From assembly GCF_900114605.1 (NCBI RefSeq), contig NZ_FOTP01000003.1, positions 62,001 to 126,000 on the forward strand: a stretch of DNA of 64,000 nt, in the 5' to 3' direction. This stretch comes from Bradyrhizobium sp. NFR13. GTDB taxonomy: Bacteria; Pseudomonadota; Alphaproteobacteria; Rhizobiales; Xanthobacteraceae. Positions 23,928-41,221 of this stretch are shown here, one piece after another; the first letter of the stretch is position 1; every line of letters starts with the position of its first letter. Both the position numbers and the translations under genes were made by a program. Below the pieces are notes generated by a model. The model did no database searches. It had not been told where the DNA came from and saw nothing but the letters and a program-made list of their open reading frames with translations.

Positions 23928-24647
23928 CTAGTGAATGCCGACGCCGACCAGCCGATCGACCAGCGCGCGGTTGGCGGTCAGCACGTCCGGCGCGCCGCTC
24001 CAGCTGGTACGGCCACGCTCCATCACCATGACACTGCTGGCAAAATCCAGCGCGCGTTCAATCTGCTGCTCGACCAGAATGATGGTGACTTCATTGGTGG
24101 CAGCCAGCTTCGCCAGCAATGCCATCAACTCGTCGCAAATCACGGGCGCCAAACCTTCCAGAGGCTCATCGAGCAACAGGATCGAGGGCTTGCCCAGCAG
24201 CGTCCGGGCCATAGACAGCATCTGCTGCTCGCCGCCTGACAGCTGCTTGCCGTAATTGCCGCGGCGCTCGCGCAGGCGCGGAAACATCGCATAGGCCTCA
24301 TCGAGCGCCGAGACCGGCCGCCCCTTCAGCCCGGTGCGCAGATTCTCCTCCACCGTCAGCGAGGCGAAAATGTCGCGGGTCTGCGGCACATAGCCGATAC
24401 CGAGGTCAGCGCGCGCAGAGGTGCGCTTGGTCGTGACGTCCTGGTCACCGATCCGGATCTCACCGCCATGGCGCGTTGTCAGGCCCATTAGCGTCGCCAG
24501 CAACGTGGTCTTTCCCATGCCGTTGCGGCCGAGCACAGCCAAACGATCGCCGGCCTTCACCGAGAACGAAACGCCCTCGATGATCCGCGTCGGGCCGTAG
24601 CCGGCGCTCAGGTTCTGGATATCAAGTGGGGCGGCGGGCATCGGCAT
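23928..24647 (-). CDS. Branched-chain amino acid-type ABC transporter ATP-binding protein (LivF-like)
   Basis: ATPase subunit of 239 aa in the second Liv-type importer. Motifs are Walker A GRNGMGKTT, signature LSGGEQQML, Walker B ILLLDEPLEGLAP and H-loop ILVEQQIERAL. ATG 24647 (or 24641, MPAAP) overlaps the end of the livG-like gene. It is the last gene of the leftward catabolic operon. The upstream enzymes point to an aromatic or amide substrate. Confidence 0.92.
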   Translation of the reverse strand: MPMPAAPLDIQNLSAGYGPTRIIEGVSFSVKAGDRLAVLGRNGMGKTTLLATLMGLTTRHGGEIRIGDQDVTTKRTSARADLGIGYVPQTRDIFASLTVEENLRTGLKGRPVSALDEAYAMFPRLRERRGNYGKQLSGGEQQMLSMARTLLGKPSILLLDEPLEGLAPVICDELMALLAKLAATNEVTIILVEQQIERALDFASSVMVMERGRTSWSGAPDVLTANRALVDRLVGVGIH

Positions 24648-25386
24648 AGCTCCCCAAATACGCGCGACGCACTTCGTGATCGGCGGTGACCTGATCAGGC
24701 GATCCCTCGAAGATCAGCCGTCCGGCCGCCAGCACCAGCACGCGCTTGGCAAACTTGAACACCAGATCCATGTCGTGCTCGATCATCAGCACGGCGATAT
24801 CAGATGGCAAACGATTGATCGCCTCAAGGATTCGTGGCGCTTCGTCATGTGGCACGCCGGCGGCGGGCTCGTCGAGCAGCAGCACCTTCGGATGTAGCGC
24901 GAGACCGATGGCGAGCTCGATCAGGCGTTGCTGACCATAGGCGAGCTCGACCACCTTGCGATAGGCCAACCTGTCGAGACCGAGATGGCTCAGGATCTCG
25001 CTCCACTCGGCACGCACCTCCGGCAGCTCAGTCGATGACGAGAAAAACCGGCGCGTGATCCGCTTGCGCTGCATGATCGCCAGCGCGATATTGTCGGCAA
25101 CAGTGAGATTGGCGAAAAGCCGCGTCGTCTGGAACGTGCGCACCAGGCCGCGACGCACGCGATCGGGAATGCTGAGACCGGTGATCTCGTCACCACCCAT
25201 GAAGAACTGACCTTCGCTCGGCGCAATGTCGCCGGTGATCAGATTGACCAGCGTGGTCTTGCCAGCGCCATTGGGGCCGATCAGCGCGACGCGGTCGCCT
25301 GTCGTCAATTTGAAATTGACGTCGCGCGTCACATGCAGACCGCCGAACGAGCGCGAAACGCTGCGGGCTTCGAGGAGATCGCTCAT
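24622..25386 (-). CDS. Branched-chain amino acid-type ABC transporter ATP-binding protein (LivG-like)
   Basis: ATPase subunit of 254 aa with Walker A GPNGAGKTT, the LVRTFQTTRLF segment, signature ELAYGQQRLIELA and Walker B VLLLDEPAAGVP. These motifs are canonical, in contrast to the LivG-like protein at 9573-10316. ATG 25386 (MSDLLEARS) overlaps the permease stop by four bases; the longer frame to 25572 is internal to that permease gene. Confidence 0.92.
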   Translation of the reverse strand: MSDLLEARSVSRSFGGLHVTRDVNFKLTTGDRVALIGPNGAGKTTLVNLITGDIAPSEGQFFMGGDEITGLSIPDRVRRGLVRTFQTTRLFANLTVADNIALAIMQRKRITRRFFSSSTELPEVRAEWSEILSHLGLDRLAYRKVVELAYGQQRLIELAIGLALHPKVLLLDEPAAGVPHDEAPRILEAINRLPSDIAVLMIEHDMDLVFKFAKRVLVLAAGRLIFEGSPDQVTADHEVRRAYLGSYADARRPT

Positions 25387-26384
25387 ACCGCGCTCCCCTT
25401 GCGCTTGAACTTCGCCCAGAGCAACACAACCGGCTCGATCAAACCGCGCGGTGCGAACACTACGATGAGAATGAGCAGCAGGCCCACTAGGGTCATCCAG
25501 TGGAATGGATTGGCTGCCGCCACGATATGCTCGAAGATCATGAAGATCACTGTGCCGGCCAGCGCGCCCCACAGATGCCCTGCACCGCCGAGCACCAGCA
25601 TCACCAGAACTTCGGCTGATCGTTCGAAGCTGACGCTATCGAGACCGACGACGCCGGTCGAGATCGCCGTCAGCGCTCCACCGATCCCTGCAACGGCACC
25701 AGCGACACCATACATCACGACGAGGCGCGGATAGATCGAAACGCCGATCATCTTGGCGCGCAGATCGTCATCCTTGATGCCCCGGCACATGAGGCCGAAT
25801 GGCGAACGGACGAAACGCTGCAGCACCACGAAGGTGATTACCAGCACGCCGAGCGAGAACACGAAAGCCGTGCGGCTATACATGTCGAACCCAAACACGC
25901 CGAACACCTTGCCGGGCTCGATGCCTGACAGGCCGTCGCTGCCGCCTGTAAGCCAGGACAGCTTGTTGGCGAGGCCGGCAATGAGCTGACCGACCGCGAT
26001 CGACAGTACAAGCTGCGGCAGTCCACGAAAGCGGGTGATCAACGCGCCGGAGATGAGGCCCATCACCGTGCCGGCGCATAGGCCGACGGCGAGCAATGCA
26101 ACGGGATCGCTAACGCCACGGATACAGGCGATGCCGGCGGCATAGGCGCCCACTCCGAACTGCGCTGCATGACCGAGCGTGGCGACGCCGCAATAGCCGG
26201 TGACGAGATCGAGCGACAGCACCAGGAAGGCGATGCCGATCAGCCGCGTCAGGAAGGCGAGATCGTCTGGATAGAGGAACCAGCCGATGGCACCGAGCGC
26301 CAGGATGACCAGCGCACCCGCGGCCTCCTGCGCAAACGGGATGTTGCGCTTGTGCGGAACGTGGGTCACGGCGATGTCGCTCAT
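25383..26384 (-). CDS. Branched-chain amino acid-type ABC transporter permease (LivM-like)
   Basis: Polytopic inner-membrane permease of 333 aa. Landmarks are SLDLVTGYCGVATLGHAAQF (typical of LivM near the second helix) and VLVMLVLGGAGHLWGALAG (coupling helix). ATG 26384 forms an ATGA overlap with the LivH-like gene upstream, and the gene ends in a four-base overlap with livG-like. It forms the channel together with the 26381-27250 product. Confidence 0.92.
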   Translation of the reverse strand: MSDIAVTHVPHKRNIPFAQEAAGALVILALGAIGWFLYPDDLAFLTRLIGIAFLVLSLDLVTGYCGVATLGHAAQFGVGAYAAGIACIRGVSDPVALLAVGLCAGTVMGLISGALITRFRGLPQLVLSIAVGQLIAGLANKLSWLTGGSDGLSGIEPGKVFGVFGFDMYSRTAFVFSLGVLVITFVVLQRFVRSPFGLMCRGIKDDDLRAKMIGVSIYPRLVVMYGVAGAVAGIGGALTAISTGVVGLDSVSFERSAEVLVMLVLGGAGHLWGALAGTVIFMIFEHIVAAANPFHWMTLVGLLLILIVVFAPRGLIEPVVLLWAKFKRKGSAV

Positions 26385-27250
26385 GCGTGTGCCTTGCCGA
26401 ACAGGCCGTGCGGAAACAGAAACACGATGACGATCACCGACAGATAGAAGAAGAAGTCGCCGAATTCCGGCGCGAGATATTTTCCGGTCGTATCGGCAAG
26501 GCCGAGCAACAGCGATGCCGACAACGCACCAAGGATAGAGCCGGCGCCTCCCACGGAGACCACGACGAGGAACGTCACCATGTAGCGCAGCGCGTAGAAC
26601 GGCTCGATTGGCAGGATCTCTGCACCGACCACACCGCCAAAAGCGCCAAGCCCAATGGCCAATGCGAAGGTCGCTGCATAGATGATCTCGGTGCGGATGC
26701 CGAGCGCATCGGCCATGTCGCTGTGATCGACGGAAGCGCGCAGCTTGATGCCGAATTCGGTTTTCTCGATCAGAAGCCAGAGCGCCAGCGCCACGACAAT
26801 ACCGCATGCGATGACAAAGACGCGATGCGTCGGCAGCATGCGAAAGCCGATATCGAGCGGGCCGCTCAAGGTCTGTGGCAGCGGGATCGGCTTCAGCGAC
26901 GGGCCGAAAATGAAATTGACGATGCCGATGATGAAGAAGGTGATGCCGATGGTCATCAGCACCTGGATCAGCGGATCGGACTTACGATAGATGCGGCGAT
27001 AGAGCAGCAACTCGAACGGGATCGAGGCCAGAATCGTCCCGACCACAGCGATCAGGATGGCGACGCCGTAATGCACGCCGAGATCGCGCAGGGCATAGGA
27101 GGCGAGATAGCCGCCAATCATCGCAAAGGCGCCGTGGGCGAGGTTCACCACCCGCATGAGGCCCATCATGATCGACAGGCCGATGGAGATGATGAACAGC
27201 ACCATCCCGTAGGCGACGGCGTCGATCATGATGCTGAAAATGGTGCGCAT
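26381..27250 (-). CDS. Branched-chain amino acid-type ABC transporter permease (LivH-like)
   Basis: Polytopic permease of 289 aa. The N-terminus AVAYGMVLFIISIGLSIMMG, the segment RVVNLAHGAFAMIGGYLA and VVVSVGGAGSILGALSASLL are family hallmarks. ATG 27250 is preferred (AGGA about six bases upstream); the frame extends to 27286, inside the amidohydrolase gene. It follows the amidohydrolase by eight bases, so enzyme and transporter are co-transcribed. Confidence 0.92.
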   Translation of the reverse strand: MRTIFSIMIDAVAYGMVLFIISIGLSIMMGLMRVVNLAHGAFAMIGGYLASYALRDLGVHYGVAILIAVVGTILASIPFELLLYRRIYRKSDPLIQVLMTIGITFFIIGIVNFIFGPSLKPIPLPQTLSGPLDIGFRMLPTHRVFVIACGIVVALALWLLIEKTEFGIKLRASVDHSDMADALGIRTEIIYAATFALAIGLGAFGGVVGAEILPIEPFYALRYMVTFLVVVSVGGAGSILGALSASLLLGLADTTGKYLAPEFGDFFFYLSVIVIVFLFPHGLFGKAHA

Positions 27251-27258
27251 GAGTGATC

Positions 27259-28923
27259 CTATGCCGAATGCGCAGCCGAGCGCCATTCGTCCTGGTGCGG
27301 CATGGCGTCTTGCTTCAAGGCGTCATGGACGACGGCGCCACGTACCATTGTGAGCAGAACCTGTGTCGATTTCAGCAAAGCGGCATCCGTGGTGAAGGGG
27401 TCGCGATCGAGCACGACCAGATCGGCCGCCATGCCGTTCTCCAATGTGCCACGCCAGCTCTCCTGCTTCATCGCAATGGCGCCGCCAACGGTATAGCTGT
27501 GGATGGCTTCACGGACTGTAACCGTCTCGTCAGCCCCGATCGGCGCGCCGCTGTCGGAGGCACGGCCCACGGCATCGCCGATGCCGTCCCATGGCGACCA
27601 TGATCCAGTCGGCGCATCGGAGCTAGCGATATAGGTGACACCGGCATCGATAACGGTACGGCCGGGATAGCAGATATCGGCGCGCGGCCCGAAGGCTCCC
27701 GTGATCGAGCGTCGCATCCGCGTCAGGAAACTCGGCTGCGTGACGACGAGCGCGCCAAGCGCCTTCATTCGTGCGAGGCCGCCTGCGGGCGGCACGAAGT
27801 AGTGTTCGACCCTATGACGGGCATCAGCACGCGGATGCGTGGCTTGTGCCTTCTCATAAGCCTCGATGATGCAGTCGATGGCGCGATCACCCGTGCAATG
27901 CACGGCAACCTGCCAGCCATCGGCATGGGCCTCGCCAATCACGCGCTGCAATTCGGCCTCGTCGCGCATGAACATGCCGCGCGACGGCGTATCCACAAAA
28001 TCCTCGCTGACCGCAGAGGTCCGCCCTCCGACAATGCCATCGGCAAAGTATTTCAGGGTCATGGACTGCCAGTCGGCATCCAGCGCTGGTTTCAGCCGAC
28101 GCTCAGCAGCTTCCGAGGGATCGAGCTGGTTCATGAAGCCGAGCCGCATCGGCTGCGTGGCACCCTGCGCGCGAATTGAATTCCAGACGGCGAATTCTTC
28201 GTCAAAACCGACGGTGAAGCCGACGGCCGCTTCCACGGCGGCGACGAGGCCGAGTTTCGTGCTGTCGATGATCGTGCTACGCAGTGCGTCGATCAGTTCA
28301 AGCGTATCCAGCGGCGGCACCGAACGGAACATCAGTTCAGCTGCGCTCTCCACGGCGCTGCCATCGAGACGTCCGTTCGAATCGCGGCCGAAATGGCCGC
28401 CTTCCGGATCGGCGGTGCCATCATCAATATTCAGCAACTCAAGCGCCGCGCTGTTAACGACGCCGATATGGCCGCAGAAGCGGCGGATCATCACGGGATG
28501 ATCGGGAATGACCGCATCGATCTCCGCGCGTGTCGGCAGGCGATGCTCGGCAAGACCGTTCTCGTCGAGGCCGGCAGCATAGACCCACCTGCCTGCGGCA
28601 ATCTCTTTTGCGCGCGCTGCGAGCAGATCGAGCACACCAGTGATCGATGCCGCGTCGCGTGGCGTCACCGGCACCTGCAATCGAGCATGCGCGATAGCGA
28701 ACAGATGGATATGCGCGTCAGTCAGGCCGGGGATGACCGTTGCACCATTGAGATCGATGGTCTCGCCAGTAGCTGGCGCGGCATCGGCGGCGCCGGTCCA
28801 GATCACCTTGCCATCGTTGACGACGATGCTGTCCGCGGGAACTTCGTCCCAGGCGGAACGATAGACACGGCCGTTGGTCAGCAGGATGGAAGGCGCGGCA
28901 TGGATCATCGGAGACTTGAACAT
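27259..28923 (-). CDS. YtcJ-type amidohydrolase (amidohydrolase-3 family), cytoplasmic
   Basis: Metal-dependent hydrolase of 554 aa with an N-terminal beta-sandwich (LLTNGRVYRSAWDEVPADS) and a TIM barrel. Motifs are GLTDAHIHLFA (HxH metal site), MIRRFCGHIGVVNS, VAVHCTGDRAID, RVEHYFVPP and IASSDAPTGSW. There is no signal peptide, so it is cytoplasmic, unlike its paralogue at 33137. ATG 28923 is chosen because a further in-frame ATG at 28959 lies inside a strong hairpin. Family members cleave amides, carbamates or N-acyl groups; the true substrate is unknown. Confidence 0.87.
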   Translation of the reverse strand: MFKSPMIHAAPSILLTNGRVYRSAWDEVPADSIVVNDGKVIWTGAADAAPATGETIDLNGATVIPGLTDAHIHLFAIAHARLQVPVTPRDAASITGVLDLLAARAKEIAAGRWVYAAGLDENGLAEHRLPTRAEIDAVIPDHPVMIRRFCGHIGVVNSAALELLNIDDGTADPEGGHFGRDSNGRLDGSAVESAAELMFRSVPPLDTLELIDALRSTIIDSTKLGLVAAVEAAVGFTVGFDEEFAVWNSIRAQGATQPMRLGFMNQLDPSEAAERRLKPALDADWQSMTLKYFADGIVGGRTSAVSEDFVDTPSRGMFMRDEAELQRVIGEAHADGWQVAVHCTGDRAIDCIIEAYEKAQATHPRADARHRVEHYFVPPAGGLARMKALGALVVTQPSFLTRMRRSITGAFGPRADICYPGRTVIDAGVTYIASSDAPTGSWSPWDGIGDAVGRASDSGAPIGADETVTVREAIHSYTVGGAIAMKQESWRGTLENGMAADLVVLDRDPFTTDAALLKSTQVLLTMVRGAVVHDALKQDAMPHQDEWRSAAHSA

Positions 28924-28931
28924 CTGGAGAT

Positions 28932-28969
28932 TCCGAGGCGCATGCAACTGGTGCTGCATGCGCCTCGGA
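28932..28969 (-). terminator. Intercistronic hairpin between binding-protein and amidohydrolase genes
   Basis: A perfect 15-bp inverted repeat, TCCGAGGCGCATGCA at 28932-28946 and its complement at 28955-28969, with an 8-base loop. It starts 11 bp after the stop of the substrate-binding protein gene. No T-run follows on the minus strand, so it is more likely an mRNA-stabilising or partial-termination element, raising binding-protein levels over the downstream genes, than a full terminator. Confidence 0.7.
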
Positions 28970-28980
28970 TTGGCTAGCTC

Positions 28981-30156
28981 TTACTGCTTGCTGAGCGCCC
29001 AATCGGGCTGATCGGCAAAGGTCTGCTCTTCCTTGTTGATCAGCTTGCCGTCCACCTTCGCCACGCTGCGCACATAGACGTTCTGGCGAATGTGGCGGGT
29101 GGCGGGATCGATCGATACCGGACCGCGCGGCGAGACCCACTTCATGTCCTTTACCGCATCCACCGCCTTGGCCGGATCGCGCTTGCCGTCGGTGGCCTCG
29201 ATCATCTTGTAGATCACGCGTGCACCATCATAAGCCGCCACGGAAGTCATGGTGACCTCGTCCAGGCTGGCGCCGCCCTTCTTGAGTTCCGCGAGGAACG
29301 CGGCGTTTTCCTTCGAGTCATGCGACACCGAATAGTGATAGGTCGACAGGATGCCGATGCCTGGATCGCCGATATTCGGCAGATCCGGCTCGGTCACCAC
29401 GTCGCCCGTCGACATCAGCTTGACGCCGCCGGCCTTGAGACCATTGTCGAGATAGGCTTTTACGAAGCCAAGGGTCGGCGGACCCGACGGCAGGAAGGTG
29501 AAAATCGTGTCGGCGCCGGAGTCCTTGATACGCTGCATGATCGGGCTGAAGTCGGTGGTAGCGAGCGGAATGCGGACTGCCTCAACGACAGCGCCGCCCT
29601 CGCCTTCAAAGGTCTTCTTGAACGCCGCTTCAGCATCGATGCCCGGACCGTAATCGCTGACCGCGATGGCGACTTTCTTGGCGCCGTTCTTGAACGCGAC
29701 CCTTGCCGCCGGCACCGTGTTCTGCCACATGGTGAAGGAGGTGCGGACGATATAGGGGCTCTTCTCAACGATGGCCGAGGTCGCCGCATTCATCACGATC
29801 AGCGGCGTCTTGGATTCTTCGAGCAGCGGCGCAACGGCCAGCGCGTTCGGCGTAAAGTAGATGCCGGCGAGATACTGCACCTTATCCTTGACCAGCAACT
29901 CCTGCGCCAGCGCCTTCGACTTGGCGGGGTTCGGGGCTTCCTCGTCCTTGTAAACGAACTCGACCGTGTGATTGCCTACTTTGTTGCCATTCTGCGCAAC
30001 CCAGGCGTCGATGCCCATCTTGAAGTTCTTGCCGAACAGCGCATACGGGCCCGAAAACGTGCCGATGACACCGACCTTGATGACGTCGGCGGATGCAGTA
30101 CCGGTCATCAGGCCGAGAATGGCCAGAGCCAGGATCGATTGAGCGCCTTTATTCAT
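28981..30156 (-). CDS. Branched-chain amino acid-type ABC transporter substrate-binding protein
   Basis: Periplasmic receptor of 391 aa. The signal peptide (residues 1-24, MNKGAQSILALAILGLMTG) is followed by VIKVGVIGTFSGPYALFGK. The ligand-binding Peripla_BP_6 fold includes VEFVYKDEEAPNPAKSKALA and AVSDYGPGIDAEAAFKKTF. ATG 30156 has GGGGA upstream. It belongs with the LivHMGF genes downstream. A motif shared with the FAD reductase promoter lies 50 bp upstream, so it may be transcribed separately from the enzymes at 30265-34837. Confidence 0.92.
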   Translation of the reverse strand: MNKGAQSILALAILGLMTGTASADVIKVGVIGTFSGPYALFGKNFKMGIDAWVAQNGNKVGNHTVEFVYKDEEAPNPAKSKALAQELLVKDKVQYLAGIYFTPNALAVAPLLEESKTPLIVMNAATSAIVEKSPYIVRTSFTMWQNTVPAARVAFKNGAKKVAIAVSDYGPGIDAEAAFKKTFEGEGGAVVEAVRIPLATTDFSPIMQRIKDSGADTIFTFLPSGPPTLGFVKAYLDNGLKAGGVKLMSTGDVVTEPDLPNIGDPGIGILSTYHYSVSHDSKENAAFLAELKKGGASLDEVTMTSVAAYDGARVIYKMIEATDGKRDPAKAVDAVKDMKWVSPRGPVSIDPATRHIRQNVYVRSVAKVDGKLINKEEQTFADQPDWALSKQ

Positions 30157-30204
30157 TGCAGTAGTCCCCGTTACAAAAGTTGGAAAGCTATTCGGCAAAC
30201 CTGT

Positions 30205-30219
30205 ATTCAATAAACGTGC
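30205..30219. promoter_or_regulatory. Candidate IclR-type operator (copy 3) upstream of the binding-protein gene
   Basis: ATTCAATAAACGTGC, sharing the frame TTCAATAnACGnnC with the two sites at 34857 and 34997. It lies in the 108-bp gap between the GS-like gene and the binding-protein start at 30156. Likely bound by the IclR regulator encoded at 36317; this is inference from motif identity and placement. Confidence 0.5.
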
Positions 30220-30264
30220 CTAACTGGCGCGTTTCAATTCGACAAGACGCGGCAGATTGCAGCG

Positions 30265-31701
30265 TCAGAACATCTCGAAATATTCCCGCTGCTCCCAGTC
30301 GGAGACTTCCGCCTGGAAGCGATCGATCTCAGCATTCTTGATGTGCGTATAATAGTCGACCATCGTCGCACCCATTTTCTCGCGGAAGAACGGATCTTCC
30401 TTGAGCGCAAAGGTCGCCTCGCGGAGCGATTTCGGCAGCAGGTCGGCATTGGTCTCGTAAGGCGTATCGGCTGATGGGCCGGGATCGAGCTTGCGATCGA
30501 CGCCGTCAAGACCCGACAGGATCTGCGACGACATATAGAGATAGGGGTTGGCCGCAGGCTCGCCGACGCGGTTTTCGATGCGTGTCGCGCTGTCGCCGGC
30601 ACCGCCGAGCACGCGCAGCATCGCGCCGCGGTTATCGCGGCCCCAGATCGCACGATCCGGCGCCAGAGAATAGGAGCGATAGCGCTTGTAGCCGTTGATG
30701 GTCGGCGTCGTGAACACGGTCGCCGCGCGCGCATGCGCCAAAAGACCGGCGAGATAGCCACGCCCAAGCGGCGACAGCGGCTGCGTTTCATCTGATGACA
30801 TGAACGCATTGGCACCGGTGTCGCGCGACACGATGGACTGATGCAGATGCCAGCCTGACGACACGACGTTCGGAATTTTCGGCCGACACATGAAGGTGGC
30901 GTGATAGCCGTGACGATGCGCGATCTGCTTCACGGCGCTGCGAAAAAGCACCATGCTATCGGCGGGCGTGAGACCCACTGTCGGCGCAAACGTGAATTCG
31001 CACTGGCTCGGGCCATATTCGACCTCCACCGACCGCAACGGAAGACCGAGCGCCAACACGTCGCGCCGGATGATCTCCAGCACAGGCTCCATCTGGTCAT
31101 AACGCTGTTCGGTGAGGTAGTTGTAGCCGTGCGAAAGAAGGCTAACCTCCGGCGGATTGCCAGGCTGGCCGGCATCCTCCGGCTTCATGCGGTTGTTCTC
31201 AACGTTGAAGATATGAAATTCAACTTCGAGACCGGCGACGAAATCATAGCCACGTACGCCGAGATCGCCGAGCACCTTCTTGTAGAGATTGCGCGTCGCG
31301 AACGGCACCGGGCGACCATCGGCGAAATGCACGTCGCACAGCACCCATCCGGTTTCAGGCGCCCAGGGCAGCACGCGAAACGTAGAGGGATCGGGGATCA
31401 TCAACACGTCGGCCGCGCCCTGCATTTCAGGAATGCCGAAACCGCCACCGGCGGTGAACACCGGAAATACCGTCTTGTGCGATGTGTCCTTGGCGAACAT
31501 GGTCGTGGTGATCGAGCAGCCGCTTTCGAGACAGCGCAATGCCTCGCTGGCGATCAGCGTCTTGCCTCGCAGGATGCCGTGCTGATCCGGAAACGACAGC
31601 CGGATCACTTCGAGCTTGTGCTCTTCGACCATGCTGCGCAGCCGGACAGCTGCTTCTTTTTGCTCCGCGGACCACAAACCGTGACGTTCAACGAAACTCA
31701 A
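30265..31701 (-). CDS. Glutamine synthetase-like amide ligase (GS family, PuuA/GlnA-like paralogue)
   Basis: ATP-dependent ligase fold of about 478 aa. GS landmarks are GLEVEFHIF (metal-binding ExE), SSGWHLHQS (equivalent of the GxxHxHxS loop), YKRYRSYSLAPDRAIWGRDN and ATRIENRVGEPAANPYLY (active-site Arg and Glu). The adenylylation-loop Tyr of housekeeping GlnA is not recognisable, and the sequence fits gamma-glutamyl-amine or anilide synthetases better. TTG 31701 is proposed as start because GGGAG lies just upstream and the frame beyond runs into the Rieske gene; ATG 31761 is an alternative. It sits between a Rieske oxygenase and a transporter, so it probably ligates an amine or acid substrate. 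Confidence 0.82.
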   Translation of the reverse strand: MSFVERHGLWSAEQKEAAVRLRSMVEEHKLEVIRLSFPDQHGILRGKTLIASEALRCLESGCSITTTMFAKDTSHKTVFPVFTAGGGFGIPEMQGAADVLMIPDPSTFRVLPWAPETGWVLCDVHFADGRPVPFATRNLYKKVLGDLGVRGYDFVAGLEVEFHIFNVENNRMKPEDAGQPGNPPEVSLLSHGYNYLTEQRYDQMEPVLEIIRRDVLALGLPLRSVEVEYGPSQCEFTFAPTVGLTPADSMVLFRSAVKQIAHRHGYHATFMCRPKIPNVVSSGWHLHQSIVSRDTGANAFMSSDETQPLSPLGRGYLAGLLAHARAATVFTTPTINGYKRYRSYSLAPDRAIWGRDNRGAMLRVLGGAGDSATRIENRVGEPAANPYLYMSSQILSGLDGVDRKLDPGPSADTPYETNADLLPKSLREATFALKEDPFFREKMGATMVDYYTHIKNAEIDRFQAEVSDWEQREYFEMF

Positions 31702-31732
31702 CGCACTCTCCCGCGGCTGTTCTGATCGATCT

Positions 31733-33100
31733 TCACTCTGCCGCCGGCAGGTGGATGACATTGGACCCCGGCTCGGTCTGATCGGCCGGAGCAGCTGCCA
31801 TCCATGGCGCACCACGGCGACGGGCGACGTCGACTTCCATCCAATAGGTTTCCCAGCCTTTGGTCGGCCCGATGCCGTCCATGGTGCCCGGACCCTGAAT
31901 GCTGCGTGCGGTGTCCGCGTCGAGGGACATCATCGGCTTCTGGCCGCCGGCAACCTTCTCGATCTCCGCACGCAACAGCTTGCGATAGGCGATGATCGCC
32001 TTGTCGCTGGAGCCGAGATGCTCGCGGGTACGATCCTGGATCTTGCCCATCGACTCCACCGCCCACTGGTCGTGGACGTTGATGTCTGCGCCCATGCCCG
32101 TATAGGTCTCGTGCTTCTGCTCGTGCGGATTGAAGCCGTAGTCGTTGGTCTTGTTCTTGCGCGAGGTGTAGTTCGGCAGCTCGTAAAGTTCGAGCCGCTG
32201 GTCGGTCATCTTCTTCTTGTCGACCGGCGTCGTGTAGCTGGTGAAGATCGCATACCAGTAGCAGTTCTCGTCATCGACCGGCACGTGCCACTGGGTGATC
32301 GTCATCTCCGTGCTCATGGGGATGACGAAGCCATGCGGGAATAGCTGGTTGGTGACGCGCACATGGGTACGCTCTTCGTCGAGCTCGCGCAGCGCAATCA
32401 GGCGCAGGCCGTATTCGGTCGATTCCACATTGATGATCGGGCGATCATATTCGCGCAGGATCTTGGTCATCGGCAGTTCGGTGCCCGCGGAGGCGCCGCG
32501 GAACTGCTTGCCATAAGATGCCTTGACGTCCTCGTCCTCGAAGAAGCGGTGCAGGAACGACGCGTGGGCGGGATCGATGCCGACTTCCAGCGCTTGCAGC
32601 CAGTTGCATTCGAACAGGCCCTTGAAGGCGAAGGTGTATTGGCCGGGTGCGGCGAAACAGTCGAGCTCGGGGAATGCCGGCGGCTCGCCCTCGCCCAGAT
32701 AGGCCCAGAGGATGCCGCCCTTCTCGACCACGGGATAAGCCCGCTGCTTGATGCCGGCGCAGAGCTTGGAGGTCTTCGGCTCGGCCGGCGTCTCCAGGCA
32801 CTTGCCCTCAACGTCGAACAGCCAGCCGTGAAACGCGCAGCGCACGCCGCCGCCTTCGAGACGACCGAAGGCAAGGTCAGCGCCGCGATGCGGACAATCG
32901 CGGTCGAGCAGGCCATAGCGCCCCTGCTCATCGCGGAACAGGACGAAGTCCTCGCCGAGCAATTTGACCGGACGGATCGGACGATCCCCTTCGAGCTCAT
33001 CGACCAGCGCCGCCGGCTGCCAATACATGCGCATCAGCTTGCCGGCGGGCGCCTTGGGCCCAATGCGGGTGATCAGGTCGTTCTGCTCTTGGCTCATCAT
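31733..33100 (-). CDS. Rieske non-heme iron oxygenase (phthalate 4,5-dioxygenase-like alpha subunit)
   Basis: Oxygenase component of 455 aa. The Rieske [2Fe-2S] domain (about 28-135) has CPHRGADL and CAFHGWLFD. The catalytic domain has the mononuclear iron ligands in DPAHASFLHRFFEDED (Hx4H). Length and the N-terminus RMYWQPAALVDELEGDRP place it with single-type phthalate/3-chlorobenzoate-like oxygenases or O/N-demethylases, which need a separate reductase. None is adjacent except the FAD reductase at 35080, and no ferredoxin gene is visible. AAGGA precedes ATG 33100. Ring hydroxylation versus dealkylation cannot be decided. Confidence 0.9.
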   Translation of the reverse strand: MMSQEQNDLITRIGPKAPAGKLMRMYWQPAALVDELEGDRPIRPVKLLGEDFVLFRDEQGRYGLLDRDCPHRGADLAFGRLEGGGVRCAFHGWLFDVEGKCLETPAEPKTSKLCAGIKQRAYPVVEKGGILWAYLGEGEPPAFPELDCFAAPGQYTFAFKGLFECNWLQALEVGIDPAHASFLHRFFEDEDVKASYGKQFRGASAGTELPMTKILREYDRPIINVESTEYGLRLIALRELDEERTHVRVTNQLFPHGFVIPMSTEMTITQWHVPVDDENCYWYAIFTSYTTPVDKKKMTDQRLELYELPNYTSRKNKTNDYGFNPHEQKHETYTGMGADINVHDQWAVESMGKIQDRTREHLGSSDKAIIAYRKLLRAEIEKVAGGQKPMMSLDADTARSIQGPGTMDGIGPTKGWETYWMEVDVARRRGAPWMAAAPADQTEPGSNVIHLPAAE

Positions 33101-33136
33101 GGCAAGATTTCCTTTTTAACTCTGGCGATGCGCCGC

Positions 33137-34837
33137 TTAACGCTGAAATACGATCTTGCCGCCGACCATCGTCATATCGGCAGTGATATCCTTGATCTGG
33201 TCGTCCGGCACCGTCATGAAGTCGGCGGAGAGCACCACGAGATCGGCCAGCTTGCCGGCCTCCAGCGTCCCCTTCCGCGTTTCCTCAAACATGTAGCGCG
33301 ATGCCGCACTGGTATAGAGGCGAAGCGCCTCCTCGCGCCCGATCGCTTCGGACGCGCCGTAGACCTGGCCGGCAGGGTCCTTCCGCGTCACCATGATATA
33401 CATCGTGAGGAACGGATTCAGCGGATTGACCGGGAAATCGGTGCCGGCGCCGAGATTGTCCAGTCCCATTTTCTCGATCAGGGTGCGCGTCGGGACCGCA
33501 CGATCCGCTGTCGGCCTGCCGAGGAAACGCGCGACCGTCGCCGCCTTGTCCCACATGAAGGCGTTCTGGAAATCGATCCGCGCCCCGACGCGGCGCGCCC
33601 GCTCCATCTGTTCGGGGCGGATCAGGCTGGCATGGATCAAAACGAAGCGGCGATCCTTGATCGACTTTTCCTTGTCGGCGGCCTCGAACGCATCCAGCAC
33701 CTGATCGACACCGAGGTCGCCGACGACATGAACGCCGACCCGCCAACCGCGATTGTTGGCGATCGACACCAGCTGCTTCAGCCGTTCGGGCGTGACCTGC
33801 GCGATCCCATGATAATCGTCATGCGAGTCCGGATAGGCCTCGCGCATCATGGCCGTCTTCAGGGTCATGCCGCCGTCATAGAAAATCTTGATGCCGCCGA
33901 GCTTCAGCCAATCGTCGCCGAAGCCCGACGTGGCGCCGTTGCCGCTCATGATGGCGTCCCAACCGGCCGAGTCCGCGGGCGGCTCCGGTCGAAACATCGT
34001 TCCGACCCGCACTGTCGCATCGCCTGCCAGAGCGAGCTTTTGCAGGATCTGCGTGTCGCGCGCGCTTGTCGCGCCCTCGACGACGCTGGTGATACCGAGG
34101 CGGTTGAGCGCGGCCTCGGCGAGACGATATTGCCGCAACTCCTCGTCTTCGGTGTAGGGGGGCACGATGTTCTCGACCAGCGGGATCGCCGTCTCGACCA
34201 GCACGCCATTGATGTCACCGCTTGCGTCGCGCTCGAAAGAGCCGCCGGCTGGATCGGGCGTGCTCTTGCCGATGCCCGCCTTCTGCAACGCCAGCGAATT
34301 GGCCATCGCAAAGTGACCGACGGTCCGCAGATAGACCGGATTGTTCGGGGAAACGCTGTCGAGCTCCTGGCGGGTCAGGTAGCGCTTTTCCGCGAGCTGC
34401 GACGGCGGATGCCAGCCGCCGGTCGTAATCCATGCGCCGGGCTGCTTCTTCGCAACGAACGCCTTGATGAGCTCGAGCGCGCCGGCCACGTCTTTGGCGC
34501 CGCCGAGATTGACCACATAGTCGCCGAGCCCGGCCGCTCTGAAATGGGCGTGGGTGTCGATCAGGCCGGGGACCACCGACTTGCCGGCGAGGTCGATGAC
34601 CCGGGTCTGCGGACCCGCGAGCGGCTTGATGGCAGCGTCGCTGCCGACCGCGAGGATCTTGCCGTCGCGGACGGCCAGCGCTTGCGCGATCGTCGACTGA
34701 CCGTCGAGGGTGAGGATTTTGCCGCCCGTCAGGACGACCTGAGGGGCGTTCTGGTCAGATTGCTGCGCCACAGCCGGCAAGACCGGGGCGCCAACAGCGA
34801 TTGCCCCCGCAATGATGGATTTCGCAACTAGGTGCAT
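33137..34837 (-). CDS. Exported YtcJ-type amidohydrolase
   Basis: Amidohydrolase-3 family enzyme of 566 aa with a Sec signal peptide (MHLVAKSIIAGAIAVGA, cleavage after AVA). The barrel motifs are GLIDTHAHFRA (HxH), VGVHVVGDLGVDQVL, FVLIHASLI and GAGTDFPVNP. It is a paralogue of the cytoplasmic enzyme at 27259. Its periplasmic location suggests initial attack on the substrate before uptake by the Liv-type transporter. It is the first gene of the leftward operon, with GGAG seven bases before ATG 34837 and a candidate operator 20 bp upstream. Confidence 0.87.
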   Translation of the reverse strand: MHLVAKSIIAGAIAVGAPVLPAVAQQSDQNAPQVVLTGGKILTLDGQSTIAQALAVRDGKILAVGSDAAIKPLAGPQTRVIDLAGKSVVPGLIDTHAHFRAAGLGDYVVNLGGAKDVAGALELIKAFVAKKQPGAWITTGGWHPPSQLAEKRYLTRQELDSVSPNNPVYLRTVGHFAMANSLALQKAGIGKSTPDPAGGSFERDASGDINGVLVETAIPLVENIVPPYTEDEELRQYRLAEAALNRLGITSVVEGATSARDTQILQKLALAGDATVRVGTMFRPEPPADSAGWDAIMSGNGATSGFGDDWLKLGGIKIFYDGGMTLKTAMMREAYPDSHDDYHGIAQVTPERLKQLVSIANNRGWRVGVHVVGDLGVDQVLDAFEAADKEKSIKDRRFVLIHASLIRPEQMERARRVGARIDFQNAFMWDKAATVARFLGRPTADRAVPTRTLIEKMGLDNLGAGTDFPVNPLNPFLTMYIMVTRKDPAGQVYGASEAIGREEALRLYTSAASRYMFEETRKGTLEAGKLADLVVLSADFMTVPDDQIKDITADMTMVGGKIVFQR

Positions 34838-34856
34838 CTCGTCGCTCCACCAAAAT

Positions 34857-34871
34857 GTTCAATAGACGAAC
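34857..34871. promoter_or_regulatory. Candidate IclR-type operator (copy 1)
   Basis: GTTCAATAGACGAAC, with outer GTTC/GAAC symmetry as in operators of PcaR/PobR-like IclR regulators. It lies 20 bp upstream of the exported amidohydrolase. It matches copy 2 (34997-35011) at 13 of 15 positions. Both are in the divergent region between the amidohydrolase and the FAD reductase operons. Confidence 0.55.
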
Positions 34872-34996
34872 TAACGTGCGAATATTAGCGTTGGACTAAT
34901 TCTAAGCAAGCGAAATTTTGCAGCATAAATTGATGAGGTAGTGAGCAAATGCAGCAATCCACGCTCAAAGCATCACCTTGCGTAGAGCGAACACTT

Positions 34997-35011
34997 GTTC
35001 AATATACGGAC
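34997..35011. promoter_or_regulatory. Candidate IclR-type operator (copy 2)
   Basis: GTTCAATATACGGAC, same orientation as copy 1, 16 bp upstream of the short leader frame and 69 bp upstream of the FAD reductase start. Its position suits autoregulation of the reductase-IclR-tautomerase operon. Confidence 0.55.
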
Positions 35012-35026
35012 GCAATTCAGGAGCTG

Positions 35027-35083
35027 ATGATGTCGAAGACTTTGAATTCGCGTGCAGATCGGACCCAGGGAGCGCGCTTGTGA
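35027..35083 (+). CDS. Possible 18-codon leader peptide
   Basis: Short frame encoding MMSKTLNSRADRTQGARL, preceded by CAGGAG (35018-35023). Its stop TGA (35081-35083) overlaps the GTG start of the FAD reductase at 35080, an arrangement suited to translational coupling. No similarity is recognised, and a chance frame is possible. Confidence 0.35.
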   Translation: MMSKTLNSRADRTQGARL

Positions 35084-36300
35084 GCGGCCTCGTGATCATC
35101 GGCGCGTCTTACGCGGGCGTCCAGGCCGGCATCAGCGCGCGCGAGAAGGGCTATCAGGCGCCGATCCGCATCGTTGCCGACGAAATCCATCTGCCCTATC
35201 AGCGACCGCCGCTGTCCAAGGCATTTCTGTCTGGCGACGTCGCGCACAACAGCCTTTTCCTCCGCGGCGAGGACTATTTCAAGACCCAGGGTATCGAACT
35301 GGTGCTGGGCCATCGGGCCATCGGGCTCGATCGTGCAGCCGGCCGGATCTCGCTGGAAGGCGGCGACAGCCTGCCCTTCGATCAGCTCGTCATCGCCACC
35401 GGCTCGCGCGCGCGGCGCCTCAGCGTGCCCGGCCATGAGCGCGACGGCATCGTCTATCTGCGCACACTCGACGATGCCCTGCATCTCAAGCCCCGGCTCG
35501 AAGCGGCAAGTGATGTCGTCATCGTCGGCGGCGGCTTCATCGGCCTCGAAGTGGCATCGACCGCTGCCAAGGCCGGCAAGAAGGTGACGCTGATCGAGGC
35601 GCAGTCGCGCCTGCTGGAGCGCGCGGTATCGCCGCTGATCTCGCAATTCCTTCTGGATAGCCATCGCTCCCATGGTCTCGACATCCGCTTCAACGAATCC
35701 GTTGTTGCCATCGAAGGCAACGGCGCCGTGCATGAGGTCGTCTGCTCCAGTGGCGTGCGGGTGCGCGCCGACCTGATCGTCGCCGGCATCGGCGGCATCG
35801 CCAATGACGAGCTGGCCGCACAGGCCGATATCACCTGCACCAATGGCATCGATGTCGACGAACACGGCCTGACCAGCGCGCCGAACATCTATGCCGCCGG
35901 CGACGTCAGCAATCACCACAACGGCTTTGCCGGCCGCCGCGTGCGGCTGGAAGCCGTGCAGAACGCCACCGATCAGGGCAAGGCTGTGGGCGCGATGATC
36001 GCCGGCAAGCCGGAAGCCTATGACGCGGTGCCGCGTTTCTGGTCGGATCAATATGACGCCAAGCTGCAAATCGTCGGCCTCTCTGCACCGACCGACAGCG
36101 CGGTGATCCGCGGTTCGATGGATGATGGCAAGTTTTCGGTGTTTTATTATCGCGACGGAAAGCTCACTGCTGTCGACAGTATCAACCGGCCGGGCGACCA
36201 GATGATCGCACGCCGCCTGATCACTGCATCGCTCTCGCCGACGCCGGAGCAGGCCGCCGATCTGTCATTCGATCTGAAAAAGTTCGAAGCAGGCAAATAG
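35080..36300 (+). CDS. FAD-dependent ferredoxin/rubredoxin reductase-like oxidoreductase
   Basis: Flavoprotein of 406 aa of the BphA4/putidaredoxin reductase class, passing electrons from NAD(P)H to a ferredoxin or directly to an oxygenase. Motifs are the N-terminal FAD site VIIGASYAGVQAG, YQRPPLSKAFL, the NAD site VVIVGGGFIGLEVA and the second FAD motif NIYAAGDVSNHHN. GTG 35080 is chosen because GGGAG lies upstream and the family begins right at the dinucleotide motif; upstream codons look non-coding. It is the probable partner of the Rieske oxygenase across the divergent promoter. Confidence 0.9.
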   Translation: MSGLVIIGASYAGVQAGISAREKGYQAPIRIVADEIHLPYQRPPLSKAFLSGDVAHNSLFLRGEDYFKTQGIELVLGHRAIGLDRAAGRISLEGGDSLPFDQLVIATGSRARRLSVPGHERDGIVYLRTLDDALHLKPRLEAASDVVIVGGGFIGLEVASTAAKAGKKVTLIEAQSRLLERAVSPLISQFLLDSHRSHGLDIRFNESVVAIEGNGAVHEVVCSSGVRVRADLIVAGIGGIANDELAAQADITCTNGIDVDEHGLTSAPNIYAAGDVSNHHNGFAGRRVRLEAVQNATDQGKAVGAMIAGKPEAYDAVPRFWSDQYDAKLQIVGLSAPTDSAVIRGSMDDGKFSVFYYRDGKLTAVDSINRPGDQMIARRLITASLSPTPEQAADLSFDLKKFEAGK

Positions 36301-36316
36301 GTCGGACCCGCGGCTC

Positions 36317-37102
36317 ATGCCCAAGATCAAGCGCCCCGACGACGAACGCGGCAATACCGACTTCATCGAGAGCCTCGATCGCGGCTTGCGAGTGCTCGAA
36401 CTGTTCGGCGCGCATTCGCGCCCGATGACGCTGAGCGATGTCGCCAAGGCCGCCGATCTGCCGCGTGCCACGGCGCGCCGCATCCTGTTTACGCTGGAAC
36501 GCAAAGGCTATGTGACCAGCGACGGCAAGCTGTTTGCGCTCTCGCCCCGCGTCCTGGCGCTGGCCGGCTCCTACATGACCTCCAATCAGGTCGTCACCAT
36601 CCTGCAGCCGGTGCTCGACAGCATCTCCAGCGATGCGCAGGAAATTTCGTCGCTCGCGGTGCTCGATGGCCATGAGGTGATCTTCGTCGCCCGCGCCAGC
36701 CCGGCGCGGGTGTTTTCCGCCGGCATCGATCTCGGCTACCGGCTGCCCGCGTTCTGCTCGTCGGTGGGTCGCGCCATGCTCGGCAAGTATTCCAACGACG
36801 ACCTCACCGCAACGCTGGATGCCATGGACCTCGTGGCGATGACGCCCTTCACGGTGACCGACAAGGAACTGCTGAAGGCCACCATCATCACCGACCGCGA
36901 GAAAGGCTACTCCCTGGTCGACCGCGAGGCCGAACCTGGTTTCCGCTCGATCTCGGTGCCCGTACGGCGCTACGATGGCGCCATCATCGCCGCCATCAAT
37001 ATGGGCGCCCATGTGGACCGCGTCTCCACCGGGGAAATGATCGACCGCTTCCTTCCGCTGCTGCGCAATGCCGCCGCCTCGGTGAAGCCACTGCTTCTTT
37101 GA
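36317..37102 (+). CDS. IclR-family regulator (PcaR/PobR-like)
   Basis: Regulator of 261 aa. The N-terminal wHTH runs from IESLDRGLRVLELFG to TLSDVAKAADLPRATARRIL, followed by the effector domain with LPAFCSSVGRAMLGKY and ISVPVRRYDGAIIAAINMG, both typical of the PcaR/CatR/PobR branch that senses aromatic acids. It lies 16 bp downstream of the FAD reductase and upstream of a CHMI-like gene. The GTTCAATA-type boxes near 34857, 34997 and 30205 resemble known operators of this branch and are probably its targets. Confidence 0.92.
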   Translation: MPKIKRPDDERGNTDFIESLDRGLRVLELFGAHSRPMTLSDVAKAADLPRATARRILFTLERKGYVTSDGKLFALSPRVLALAGSYMTSNQVVTILQPVLDSISSDAQEISSLAVLDGHEVIFVARASPARVFSAGIDLGYRLPAFCSSVGRAMLGKYSNDDLTATLDAMDLVAMTPFTVTDKELLKATIITDREKGYSLVDREAEPGFRSISVPVRRYDGAIIAAINMGAHVDRVSTGEMIDRFLPLLRNAAASVKPLLL

Positions 37103-37118
37103 TCCGACTGGACAGCCC

Positions 37119-37466
37119 ATGCCCCATCTCGTCATCGAACACTCCACCGACGGCCATGGCGGCCTGTTCGACGCCACCAGCCTGATGCAGGCTCTGCATG
37201 ATGCAGCCGCCGCTACCGGCGTGATGCAGGCGGGGGATATCAAGATCCGCGCGATGGCCTATGCGAATTACCTCGTGGCGCGGCAGCACGACGGCTTCTG
37301 CCACGTTACCGTGTCGATGCTCGAAGGCCGCACGCCCGAGCAGAAGGTTGCCGTCAGCGAAGCGCTGCGGGCTGCGATGGCCGAAATGCTGCCACAGACC
37401 AAGAGCCTCAGCGTCGATATCCGGGACATGGACCCCGTCGCTTACAAGAAGCGGCTGAACGACTAG
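37119..37466 (+). CDS. 5-carboxymethyl-2-hydroxymuconate delta-isomerase-like tautomerase
   Basis: Small enzyme of 115 aa of the tautomerase superfamily. The N-terminus MPHLVIEHS has the catalytic Pro right after Met, and the family length matches HpaF/CHMI. That reaction isomerises a ring-cleavage product of homoprotocatechuate. No meta-cleavage dioxygenase or other hpa gene is near, so the true substrate here is uncertain. It lies 16 bp after the IclR gene, last in the rightward operon, facing hupB across a terminator. Confidence 0.85.
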   Translation: MPHLVIEHSTDGHGGLFDATSLMQALHDAAAATGVMQAGDIKIRAMAYANYLVARQHDGFCHVTVSMLEGRTPEQKVAVSEALRAAMAEMLPQTKSLSVDIRDMDPVAYKKRLND

Positions 37467-38127: not shown

Positions 38128-38748
38128 TCACCACATGGTCTGGCGCGCCCTTTCCGGCCATTGCCGATCGTATTCCGGACCGCCGACCCGGCGCTCGCTC
38201 ATCTCCGCCAGGATCTCGCCGGGCGTCGGCAGGGTCTTCGGATCGACGCGTTTATCAGGGTTCCAGAGATCGGACCGCACGATGGCGCGGGCGCATTGGA
38301 AATAGATCTCTCCGACCGTCATCACGATGACCGTGCGGGGCGCCTTCTCCTCCACGGCGAATGACGCCAGCAGGTCCGTATCCGTTGAGAGATGCGCTGT
38401 CCCGTTGATGCGGAGCGTGGTGCCGGCACCGGGGATCAGGAACAGCAGCGCGATGTTGGGATCGCGCACGATGTTGCGCAGAGAGTCCACGCGATTGTTG
38501 CCGCGGCGGTCCGGCATCATCAAAGTGCGCTCGTCATGGATCCGGACGAAGCCCGGTTTGTCGCCGCGCGGTGAGCAATCCAGCCCCTCCGGCCCGGTGG
38601 TCGCCAGAGCGGCGAAGGGCGAGACCTCGATCAGCCGCCGGTACTGCGCCGTTACGCAGTCCGCGACCTTGGCGGTGGATGCTTCGCCGATGTCATCGAA
38701 ACGGCCGTAGATCTCTTCGAGCTGCTCGATGGTTTCGATCACCGACAT
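38128..38748 (-). CDS. PPOX-class (pyridoxamine 5'-phosphate oxidase fold) FMN-binding protein, MSMEG_1061-like
   Basis: Flavin-binding split-barrel protein of 206 aa. The core has FAALATTGPEGLDCSPRGDKPGFV and the strands NNRVDSLRNIV and NIALLFLIPGAGTTLRING. It resembles the MSMEG_1061 subgroup of uncharacterised PPOX proteins. It begins 23 bp after phnN, so it is probably transcribed with the C-P lyase operon. Its connection to phosphonate metabolism is unknown; it could simply be the next gene. Confidence 0.85.
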   Translation of the reverse strand: MSVIETIEQLEEIYGRFDDIGEASTAKVADCVTAQYRRLIEVSPFAALATTGPEGLDCSPRGDKPGFVRIHDERTLMMPDRRGNNRVDSLRNIVRDPNIALLFLIPGAGTTLRINGTAHLSTDTDLLASFAVEEKAPRTVIVMTVGEIYFQCARAIVRSDLWNPDKRVDPKTLPTPGEILAEMSERRVGGPEYDRQWPERARQTMW

Positions 38749-38771
38749 GTCCGCACTGCCCTCCGCCGTAT

Positions 38772-39350
38772 CTATTGACCCCTGATGACCCGTATCAGGT
38801 CATCCGCATGATCTTCCGCGACACCAATATTGTTGATCGTGACGTCGGCACCTGATGTCTCGACGCTGCGCTTGAGCCGATCGCCGATCGGCCCATCGGT
38901 TGAGCGTCCCCGCGCCGCAAGTCGCGCCGCAAGCACTTCCGGCGGCGCCGTGATCGACACGACGACGACATCCTCATAAGCGGCACGTAGCGCAGGGATA
39001 ACTGTCCGTGAGATATTGGCAACGACATTGCGGCCGGCACGAAGCGCATCATCGATCGAGCGCGGAAGCGCATAACAAAGACCATGCGCTTCCCAGTGGA
39101 CGGCAAAGGCACCGCTGGCCTGTGCCTGACGGAACGCCTCCAGCGTGACCTGCGCATTATTCTCGAATTCCGACGCCTCGCGCGTCACCACGCGACGCGT
39201 GAACACCACATTGTCGTCATCCGCGCAAGCAGCCCGCGCCAGACCGATCAGCGTATCCTTGCCGGCCCCCGACGGGCCGACCACCAGCACCAACCGGCCG
39301 GGACCGATCCGACCTGATTGCGGTTCGGATATCGCCGCAGTGTCGGTCAT
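38772..39350 (-). CDS. phnN: Ribose 1,5-bisphosphokinase PhnN
   Basis: Kinase of 192 aa that converts ribose 1,5-bisphosphate to PRPP, completing phosphonate breakdown. The guanylate-kinase-like fold has Walker A VVGPSGAGKDTLIG near residue 24, then VTREASEFEN and the lid segment VLAARLAARGRSTDG. ATG 39350 overlaps the phnM stop by four bases. Confidence 0.93.
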   Translation of the reverse strand: MTDTAAISEPQSGRIGPGRLVLVVGPSGAGKDTLIGLARAACADDDNVVFTRRVVTREASEFENNAQVTLEAFRQAQASGAFAVHWEAHGLCYALPRSIDDALRAGRNVVANISRTVIPALRAAYEDVVVVSITAPPEVLAARLAARGRSTDGPIGDRLKRSVETSGADVTINNIGVAEDHADDLIRVIRGQ

Positions 39351-40501: not shown

Positions 40502-40512
40502 GGTTCTCTTTC

Positions 40513-41214: not shown

Positions 41215-41221
41215 GTTGACC

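Follow-up and report, generated by a model that had tools for sequence, protein, structure and literature searches.

A sad-type cluster in Bradyrhizobium that joins a Rieske oxygenase to a glutamine-synthetase-like ligase, probably for an acidic aromatic amine such as 4-aminobenzoate

Which compound is consumed with a Rieske oxygenase, a glutamine-synthetase-like (GS-like) ligase and a Liv-type importer that are encoded side by side? The question is raised by twelve genes at positions 23928-37466 of a 64,000-nucleotide stretch of Bradyrhizobium sp. NFR13 (contig NZ_FOTP01000003.1; the whole stretch is called the window below), from a genome of 6.2 Mb in 17 contigs. A sequence-only reading had described these genes as a self-contained island joining seven functions in an unfamiliar way, with a scheme that runs from periplasmic deacylation over uptake and gamma-glutamylation of an amine to ring oxygenation and isomerisation. 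Our results show that the cluster is real, conserved and functionally coherent, and that its core is a co-inherited pair of Rieske and GS-like genes to which the other genes are added in a modular way. On balance we think it probable that this is a sad-type cluster for the aerobic catabolism of an acidic aromatic amine, with 4-aminobenzoate (para-aminobenzoate, PABA) as the best candidate.

Genes were called and assigned to families with Pfam and NCBIfam profiles and their curated cut-offs. All twelve families were confirmed by profile search, and every gene named by the sequence-only reading is present where that reading had placed it (Table 1). The GS-like protein scores 220.9 bits, far under the cut-off of 429.15 for type I glutamine synthetase. 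Its nearest solved relative is NpaA1, a 1-naphthylamine ligase (8wwu, E 2.2e-140), to which it is closer than to housekeeping glutamine synthetase, and it keeps the amine-binding residues Glu232 and Glu234 of NpaA1; both are features of the GoaS proteins. A housekeeping glutamine synthetase was rejected on the profile score together with the co-occurrence of the gene with its Rieske partner.

This co-occurrence is strict. Of 61 related genomes, 27 encode the GS-like protein (E at most 1e-100), and exactly these 27 encode the Rieske protein too; the two genes adjoin in 26 of them. The one other carrier (G025; L138, L139) is the sole case with ligase and Rieske genes on different contigs. Both genes occur in all 18 searched genomes of the genus, the window's own included. 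We further collected 80 genome loci, mostly Bradyrhizobium and leaning to close relatives because they are the best 80 of 584 from a scan of named genomes (some stop at contig ends); here the Rieske gene is adjacent to the GS gene on the same strand in every case. A ligase homologue (E at most 1e-120) is present in 274 of 391 genomes of a family-wide draw, and the Rieske protein (E at most 1e-130) in 25 of 397 genomes, from seven families, of a phylum-wide draw. All 13 of these Rieske matches that lie outside the window's family were held out as a separate set, chosen by the Rieske gene alone, and each has a ligase near the Rieske gene. The sequence-only reading had proposed a search of neighbourhoods for the two genes and had named a housekeeping synthetase, or genes scattered independently among relatives, as outcomes that would count against it; the pair stays together and neither outcome occurred. 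On the Nitratireductor plasmid pOM-1 (L093) the Rieske protein is 82% identical to the window's and the ligase only 50%, the two genes lying about 2 kb apart on opposite strands, a pattern that may be a sign of partner exchange inside the sad type.

A pairing of this kind has been described before. In the sad operon of Hydrogenophaga PBC, which concerns a 4-aminobenzenesulfonate dioxygenase, Rieske, GS and ferredoxin genes are joined, and SadA is named a dioxygenase (PMC5632844). The likeness to the window is one of gene content, namely an oxygenase gene, a GS-like gene and electron-transfer genes for an arylamine; identities were measured against plasmid genes of Novosphingobium resinovorum SA1 only (78.5% for Rieske, 70.0% for GS). 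We take SadA to be the Rieske protein and SadD the reductase. Strain SA1 is a degrader of 4-aminobenzenesulfonate, or sulfanilate (PMC5632844), and on its plasmid pSA3 the order is Rieske-GS-CHMI, preceded about 2 kb upstream by a maleylacetate reductase gene. Five of the 13 distant loci have the order Rieske-GS-ferredoxin, and so do Polaromonas, Cupriavidus and Caballeronia plasmids, where an FAD-type oxidoreductase follows. The window has the Rieske gene beside the GS-like gene and an FAD reductase in the cluster, as in the sad operon, but lacks a ferredoxin (SadC) encoded there, and it goes beyond the operon with a HAAT importer, a PcaR/PobR-type regulator, a CHMI-like protein and two amidohydrolases. 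Because the layout of the pair is common to the sad operon, the distant loci, the plasmids and SA1, we regard the window cluster as a sad-type variant without ferredoxin. It is a variant of a described kind and not the new assembly of seven functions that had been proposed.

In the AtdA, Dca/Tdn and NpaA1-A5 systems, ATP-dependent gamma-glutamylation by a GoaS protein comes before Rieske dioxygenation (PMC11335346). By analogy with NpaA1/AtdA1 and the sad operon, gamma-glutamylation and oxygenation would follow as the chemistry of the window cluster. The ligases for aniline, chloroaniline and 1-naphthylamine are 44-50% identical to the window's. The cluster is not of the aniline type: the aniline and naphthylamine loci that we fetched encode GS, a glutamine amidotransferase and alpha and beta oxygenase subunits, whereas neither a beta subunit gene nor an amidotransferase gene is present in the window cluster. 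In addition, the window ligase has Lys at position 75 (NpaA1 numbering) instead of Phe, His or Val.

This position belongs to the bottleneck of the amine tunnel, formed in NpaA1 by Phe75', Phe86' and Trp235 (PMC11335346). We compared it after aligning the ligases with the NpaA1 gene itself as anchor, leaving out glutamine synthetases below 330 bits, including the paralogues L002 and L003 of the same genome. All 109 distinct ligases that share their fetched stretch with a sad-type Rieske gene have Lys (the window's own is included and only identical duplicates were removed), whether they are 100% or 47% identical to the window's. The 11 ligases without a sad-type Rieske gene in the stretch have Phe in five cases, Val and Leu in two each, His in one and Lys in one, the single Lys being that of G025, with its Rieske gene on another contig. 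The held-out loci were fetched after the Lys hypothesis was formed, and Lys is present in all 13, down to 41% identity; the aniline-type ligases thus stand above the lowest held-out Lys ligase in identity to the window's. At position 80, Lys or Arg is present in every one of the held-out loci and in almost every ligase of the first set. Judged from the aligned residues, a cation at the tunnel bottleneck would suit an amine bearing a carboxylate or a sulfonate. Three relatives (L151, L152, L153) have an additional, distant GS-like ligase in which position 75 is Val or Leu, and the fetched stretches contain no Rieske gene of the sad type.

The importer narrows the choice. The genes livK, livH and livM are present in all 17 congeners (presence meaning at least 60% identity over 30% of the query), and livF stands next to the pair in 15, G006 and G007 being the exceptions at contig ends; contig ends or stretch limits likewise explain the absence of livG in G006. 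A structure model of livK from a 26-row alignment (predicted local distance difference test, pLDDT, 84.8; a single-sequence model at 41.2 was not used) has as its best Foldseek match, at rank 1, structure 4evs, which is RPA0985 with 4-hydroxybenzoate, at 82% identity over 367 columns. 4-Aminobenzoate and 4-hydroxybenzoate have nearly the same shape. RPA0985, from Rhodopseudomonas palustris, was stabilised by 4-hydroxybenzoate by 29.5 C (PMC3223731). The protein was tested with this compound and other aromatics, and the main text of PMC3223731 contains no word beginning with 'aminobenz'. The 80 genome loci commonly have a different Liv importer on the opposite strand. In one congener (G005:C1:1944707-1945489) the livK match spans residues 130-390 only, and the binding-protein gene may be incomplete there.

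The regulator and the neighbourhoods also indicate benzoates. The IclR protein exceeds the curated cut-off of TIGR02431 (306.7 against 284.75 bits), which places it in the PcaR/PcaU/PobR subfamily. A homologue is present in 72 of the 80 genome loci and is divergent from the Rieske gene in 72 of 72. Among the congeners, IclR and the CHMI-like gene are each found in 13 of 17 and additionally in G006, where both lie further along the contig, in the stretch that follows; their absences in G003, G004 and G015 are explained by contig ends or stretch limits. Of the 80 genome loci, 59 have a benzoate-CoA-ligase-family cluster close to the pair (BoxC in 51, BoxB in 36, a BoxR-like regulator in 58), the box-gene clusters being named from one scanned representative each. 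On plasmids the neighbour is PnbB, the Pfam 4-hydroxylaminobenzoate lyase (the L096 copy scores 204.4 bits, and the other copies were recognised by 55-78% identity to it). Together with a nitroreductase-family match, it is no more than 12 kb from the pair in five of ten plasmid loci of this type (L004, L006, L095, L096 and L099 out of L004-L007, L093-L097 and L099, a set that leaves out Caballeronia NK8, Palleronia and Pseudooceanicola records, Rieske match at least 52%), and it occurs in none of the 80 genome loci. With box genes as neighbours in the genome loci and PnbB in the plasmid loci, different lineages therefore put the pair beside benzoate chemistry. In the genome itself, two proteins exceed their cut-offs: a protocatechuate 3,4-dioxygenase beta subunit, whose gene is directly followed by a homologue, and a 4-hydroxybenzoate hydroxylase. 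Quorum-sensing genes are also seen near the pair: a LuxI-type autoinducer synthase in 19 and LuxR in 20 of the 80 genome loci, for example at L071:15432-16911 (also L088 and L062), which in L071 is about 4 kb from the pair and just past the Liv genes.

Because of the tunnel Lys, the RPA0985-like livK, the box and PnbB neighbours and the PcaR/PobR-type regulator, an acidic arylamine, and best of all 4-aminobenzoate, is the substrate that we infer, as we do every catalytic step. The HAAT importer would take up the para-substituted benzoate, after which the GS-like ligase would couple L-glutamate to the ring amine at the expense of ATP. The Rieske oxygenase would then oxidise the ring at the 3,4 positions with electrons from the FAD reductase, passed on by a ferredoxin encoded elsewhere. 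The unstable product would shed its glutamyl-amine group and yield protocatechuate, to be drained by the chromosomal beta-ketoadipate pathway with the PcaR/PobR-type regulator in control. A 4-aminobenzoate degradation pathway is mentioned for Ralstonia metabolic networks, in passages that do not name the genes (PMC10470067). In the open-access literature, with subscription papers mostly outside it, we found no report joining 4-aminobenzoate catabolism to a GS-like ligase.

The oxygenase has its motifs intact (CPH..CAFH and the iron-ligand motif DPAHASFLH) and no beta subunit gene beside it. Structures of the LigXa/phthalate-dioxygenase type (7fjl, 7fhr, 9ina) match at 213-230 bits only; the common family and the intact motifs agree with this type, while the GS-like ligase as partner sets the window's protein apart. 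For the FAD reductase the best NCBIfam model is AndAa (326.9 bits, below the cut-off of 650), and the gene is present in 15 of 17 congeners, the remaining two stretches (G003, G004) stopping at contig ends. The cluster is not self-contained, as had been supposed, because no ferredoxin gene was found in it. A cysteine-motif match in the antisense frame over YtcJ1 was judged to be chance. Elsewhere in the genome there are ferredoxin homologues on contigs C11 (51%), C7 (50%) and C8 (weak, 31%); the C11 protein is confirmed as Fer2 by Pfam and the C7 one comes from the search alone, and all three are candidates that we do not assign to the pathway. Two candidate ferredoxin genes elsewhere in the genome were viewed in their surroundings (L147:9723-11798 and L148:9996-10313): one is followed by an open reading frame resembling a pyridine-nucleotide-disulphide oxidoreductase, and the other comes directly after one resembling a cytochrome P450.

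The amidohydrolases invite another explanation, namely an anilide or N-acyl-arylamine pathway in which the exported YtcJ2 deacylates the compound outside the cell before the amine is processed. Both Amidohydro_3 proteins are encoded within the minus-strand gene run, YtcJ2 has a signal-like N-terminal stretch (YtcJ1 has no evident signal peptide, both judged by eye), and, close to the pair, a Cupriavidus plasmid and L017 encode amidohydrolases that share 50% identity with YtcJ2. Their distribution speaks against such a pathway, which we consider improbable. YtcJ2 is found in six of 17 congeners (G003 and G004 are undecidable owing to contig ends) and YtcJ1 in 14, and members of their sequence clusters are seen in three and 11 of the 80 genome loci, respectively. 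YtcJ1 also diverges more between relatives than its neighbours do, being 75-80% identical to the window's among congeners against 87-97% for livH. This patchy presence suggests that both amidohydrolases are accessory and that the core does not need them. Periplasmic deacylation, the first step of the sequence-only scheme, can therefore be at most an optional side entry; we speculate that the YtcJ proteins may free amines from N-acyl forms and feed them into the pathway. The proposed isomerisation is drawn from CHMI family membership: the CHMI-like protein, with Pro directly after the start Met, exceeds the Pfam CHMI cut-off (52.4 against 26.5 bits) and stays far below that of the NCBIfam equivalog (25.9 against 215 bits). 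What stands of the scheme is that an aromatic amine would first be gamma-glutamylated and then oxygenated by the Rieske protein, an order of events that NpaA1 as nearest solved relative and the co-inheritance of the pair both favour; its deacylation, novelty and self-containment are not supported.

A loose assembly of unrelated catabolic genes around a housekeeping or nitrogen-assimilation GS could account for the variation of flanking genes and amidohydrolases among relatives. It is contradicted by the co-occurrence and adjacency of the GS and Rieske genes, by the low type I score and by an arylamine ligase as nearest solved relative, and we hold it to be very improbable indeed. A closer competitor keeps the same chemistry for another natural acidic arylamine, such as aminobenzenesulfonate, 3-aminobenzoate, an aminophenyl-carboxylate or a natural-product arylamine, with 4-aminobenzoate as a side substrate. 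The published sad operon acts on 4-aminobenzenesulfonate (PMC5632844), the sulfanilate degrader SA1 carries the pair, and the Lys pocket would accept any anion. Against this, the 4-hydroxybenzoate-type livK, the PcaR/PobR regulator and the box or PnbB neighbours all indicate benzoate. As for aminobenzenesulfonate in particular, Gan et al. report that bacteria which have presumably had little contact with xenobiotics also conserve the sad operon, and they judge a naturally occurring analogue of the sulfonate to be the likely original substrate (PMC5632844). Another acidic arylamine is therefore an unlikely answer in our view, although clearly less so than an anilide. Several observations nevertheless weigh against 4-aminobenzoate. 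Other acidic arylamines would fit the cationic pocket equally well, and the cargo of the importer could be 4-hydroxybenzoate itself; two genomes that do not have the ligase carry livK homologues (61 and 65% identity). The Lys is a character of a single clade whose branch has weak support: when two GS paralogues serve as outgroup, the Lys sequences form one clade (support 59), which makes Lys one event and not many independent ones. An earlier midpoint-rooted tree gave the non-Lys sequences as one clade (0.991) and the Lys ones not. The betaproteobacterial plasmid loci carry GntR-type genes beside the pair, so the regulator is not constant, and PnbB is not found in five of the ten plasmid loci. 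A reductase homologue is present in just nine of the 80 genome loci, and no ferredoxin-like open reading frame was detected by phmmer in 20000-42000 or in the 17 congener loci. Finally, the two amidohydrolases and the CHMI-like protein are left without an assigned step.

Table 1. Genes of the cluster, with positions in the window and the match on which each assignment is based.
Feature	Position	Strand	Evidence
livF, HAAT/Liv-type importer ATPase	23928..24647	-	Pfam ABC_tran 4.1e-31
livG, importer ATPase; start approximate	24622..25389	-	ABC_tran + BCA_ABC_TP_C
livM permease	25383..26384	-	BPD_transp_2 5.2e-30
livH permease; start approximate	26381..27253	-	BPD_transp_2 1.4e-33
YtcJ1, Amidohydro_3; start approximate	27259..28926	-	PF07969 9.4e-85
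livK, RPA0985-type solute-binding protein; start approximate	28981..30153	-	4evs E 9.5e-206
GS-like ligase, predicted sad-type gamma-glutamyl-arylamine synthetase; start uncertain	30265..31755	-	Gln-synt_C 4.5e-81
Rieske oxygenase, sad/LigXa-like	31733..33100	-	Rieske 2.2e-18, LigXa_C 1.8e-25
YtcJ2, Amidohydro_3	33137..34837	-	PF07969 5.3e-109
FAD-dependent ferredoxin reductase, AndAa/HcaD-like; start approximate	35068..36300	+	Pyr_redox_2 8e-69, Reductase_C 1e-31
IclR-family regulator, PcaR/PcaU/PobR subfamily	36317..37102	+	TIGR02431 306.7 bits
CHMI-like tautomerase	37119..37466	+	PF02962 9e-14

The minus-strand genes are transcribed in the order YtcJ2, Rieske, GS-like, livK, YtcJ1, livH, livM, livG and livF, the GS-like gene overlapping the stop of the Rieske gene, and the plus-strand run consists of FAD reductase, IclR and CHMI-like genes. 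The flank at 38128-42331 encodes a PNPOx-like protein, an AAA-type kinase-like protein, an amidohydrolase and ABC-type ATPases, the first three genes being in the same order in five of 17 congeners; these genes look like a phosphonate (phn) cluster. Within the fetched stretches the phn-side flank is kept in five and the exopolysaccharide-side flank in eight of 17 congeners. A recently acquired mobile island is not favoured, as base composition (guanine plus cytosine) is even over the whole window and the flanks are partly kept among congeners.

4-Aminobenzoate is a precursor of folate. We see an even balance for and against the broader idea that the 4-aminobenzenesulfonate system is a side use of a widespread pathway from 4-aminobenzoate to protocatechuate, a standing trait of Bradyrhizobium and its kin with a ligase tuned by one tunnel lysine. 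The system is known from a dye intermediate; the analysis puts forward 4-aminobenzoate as a testable candidate for its natural substrate and points to one residue that can be tested. If the assignment is true, the residue at position 75 would allow ligases for acidic arylamines to be told from aniline ligases by sequence, and the cluster would be a route for the use of 4-aminobenzoate in Bradyrhizobium and its relatives.

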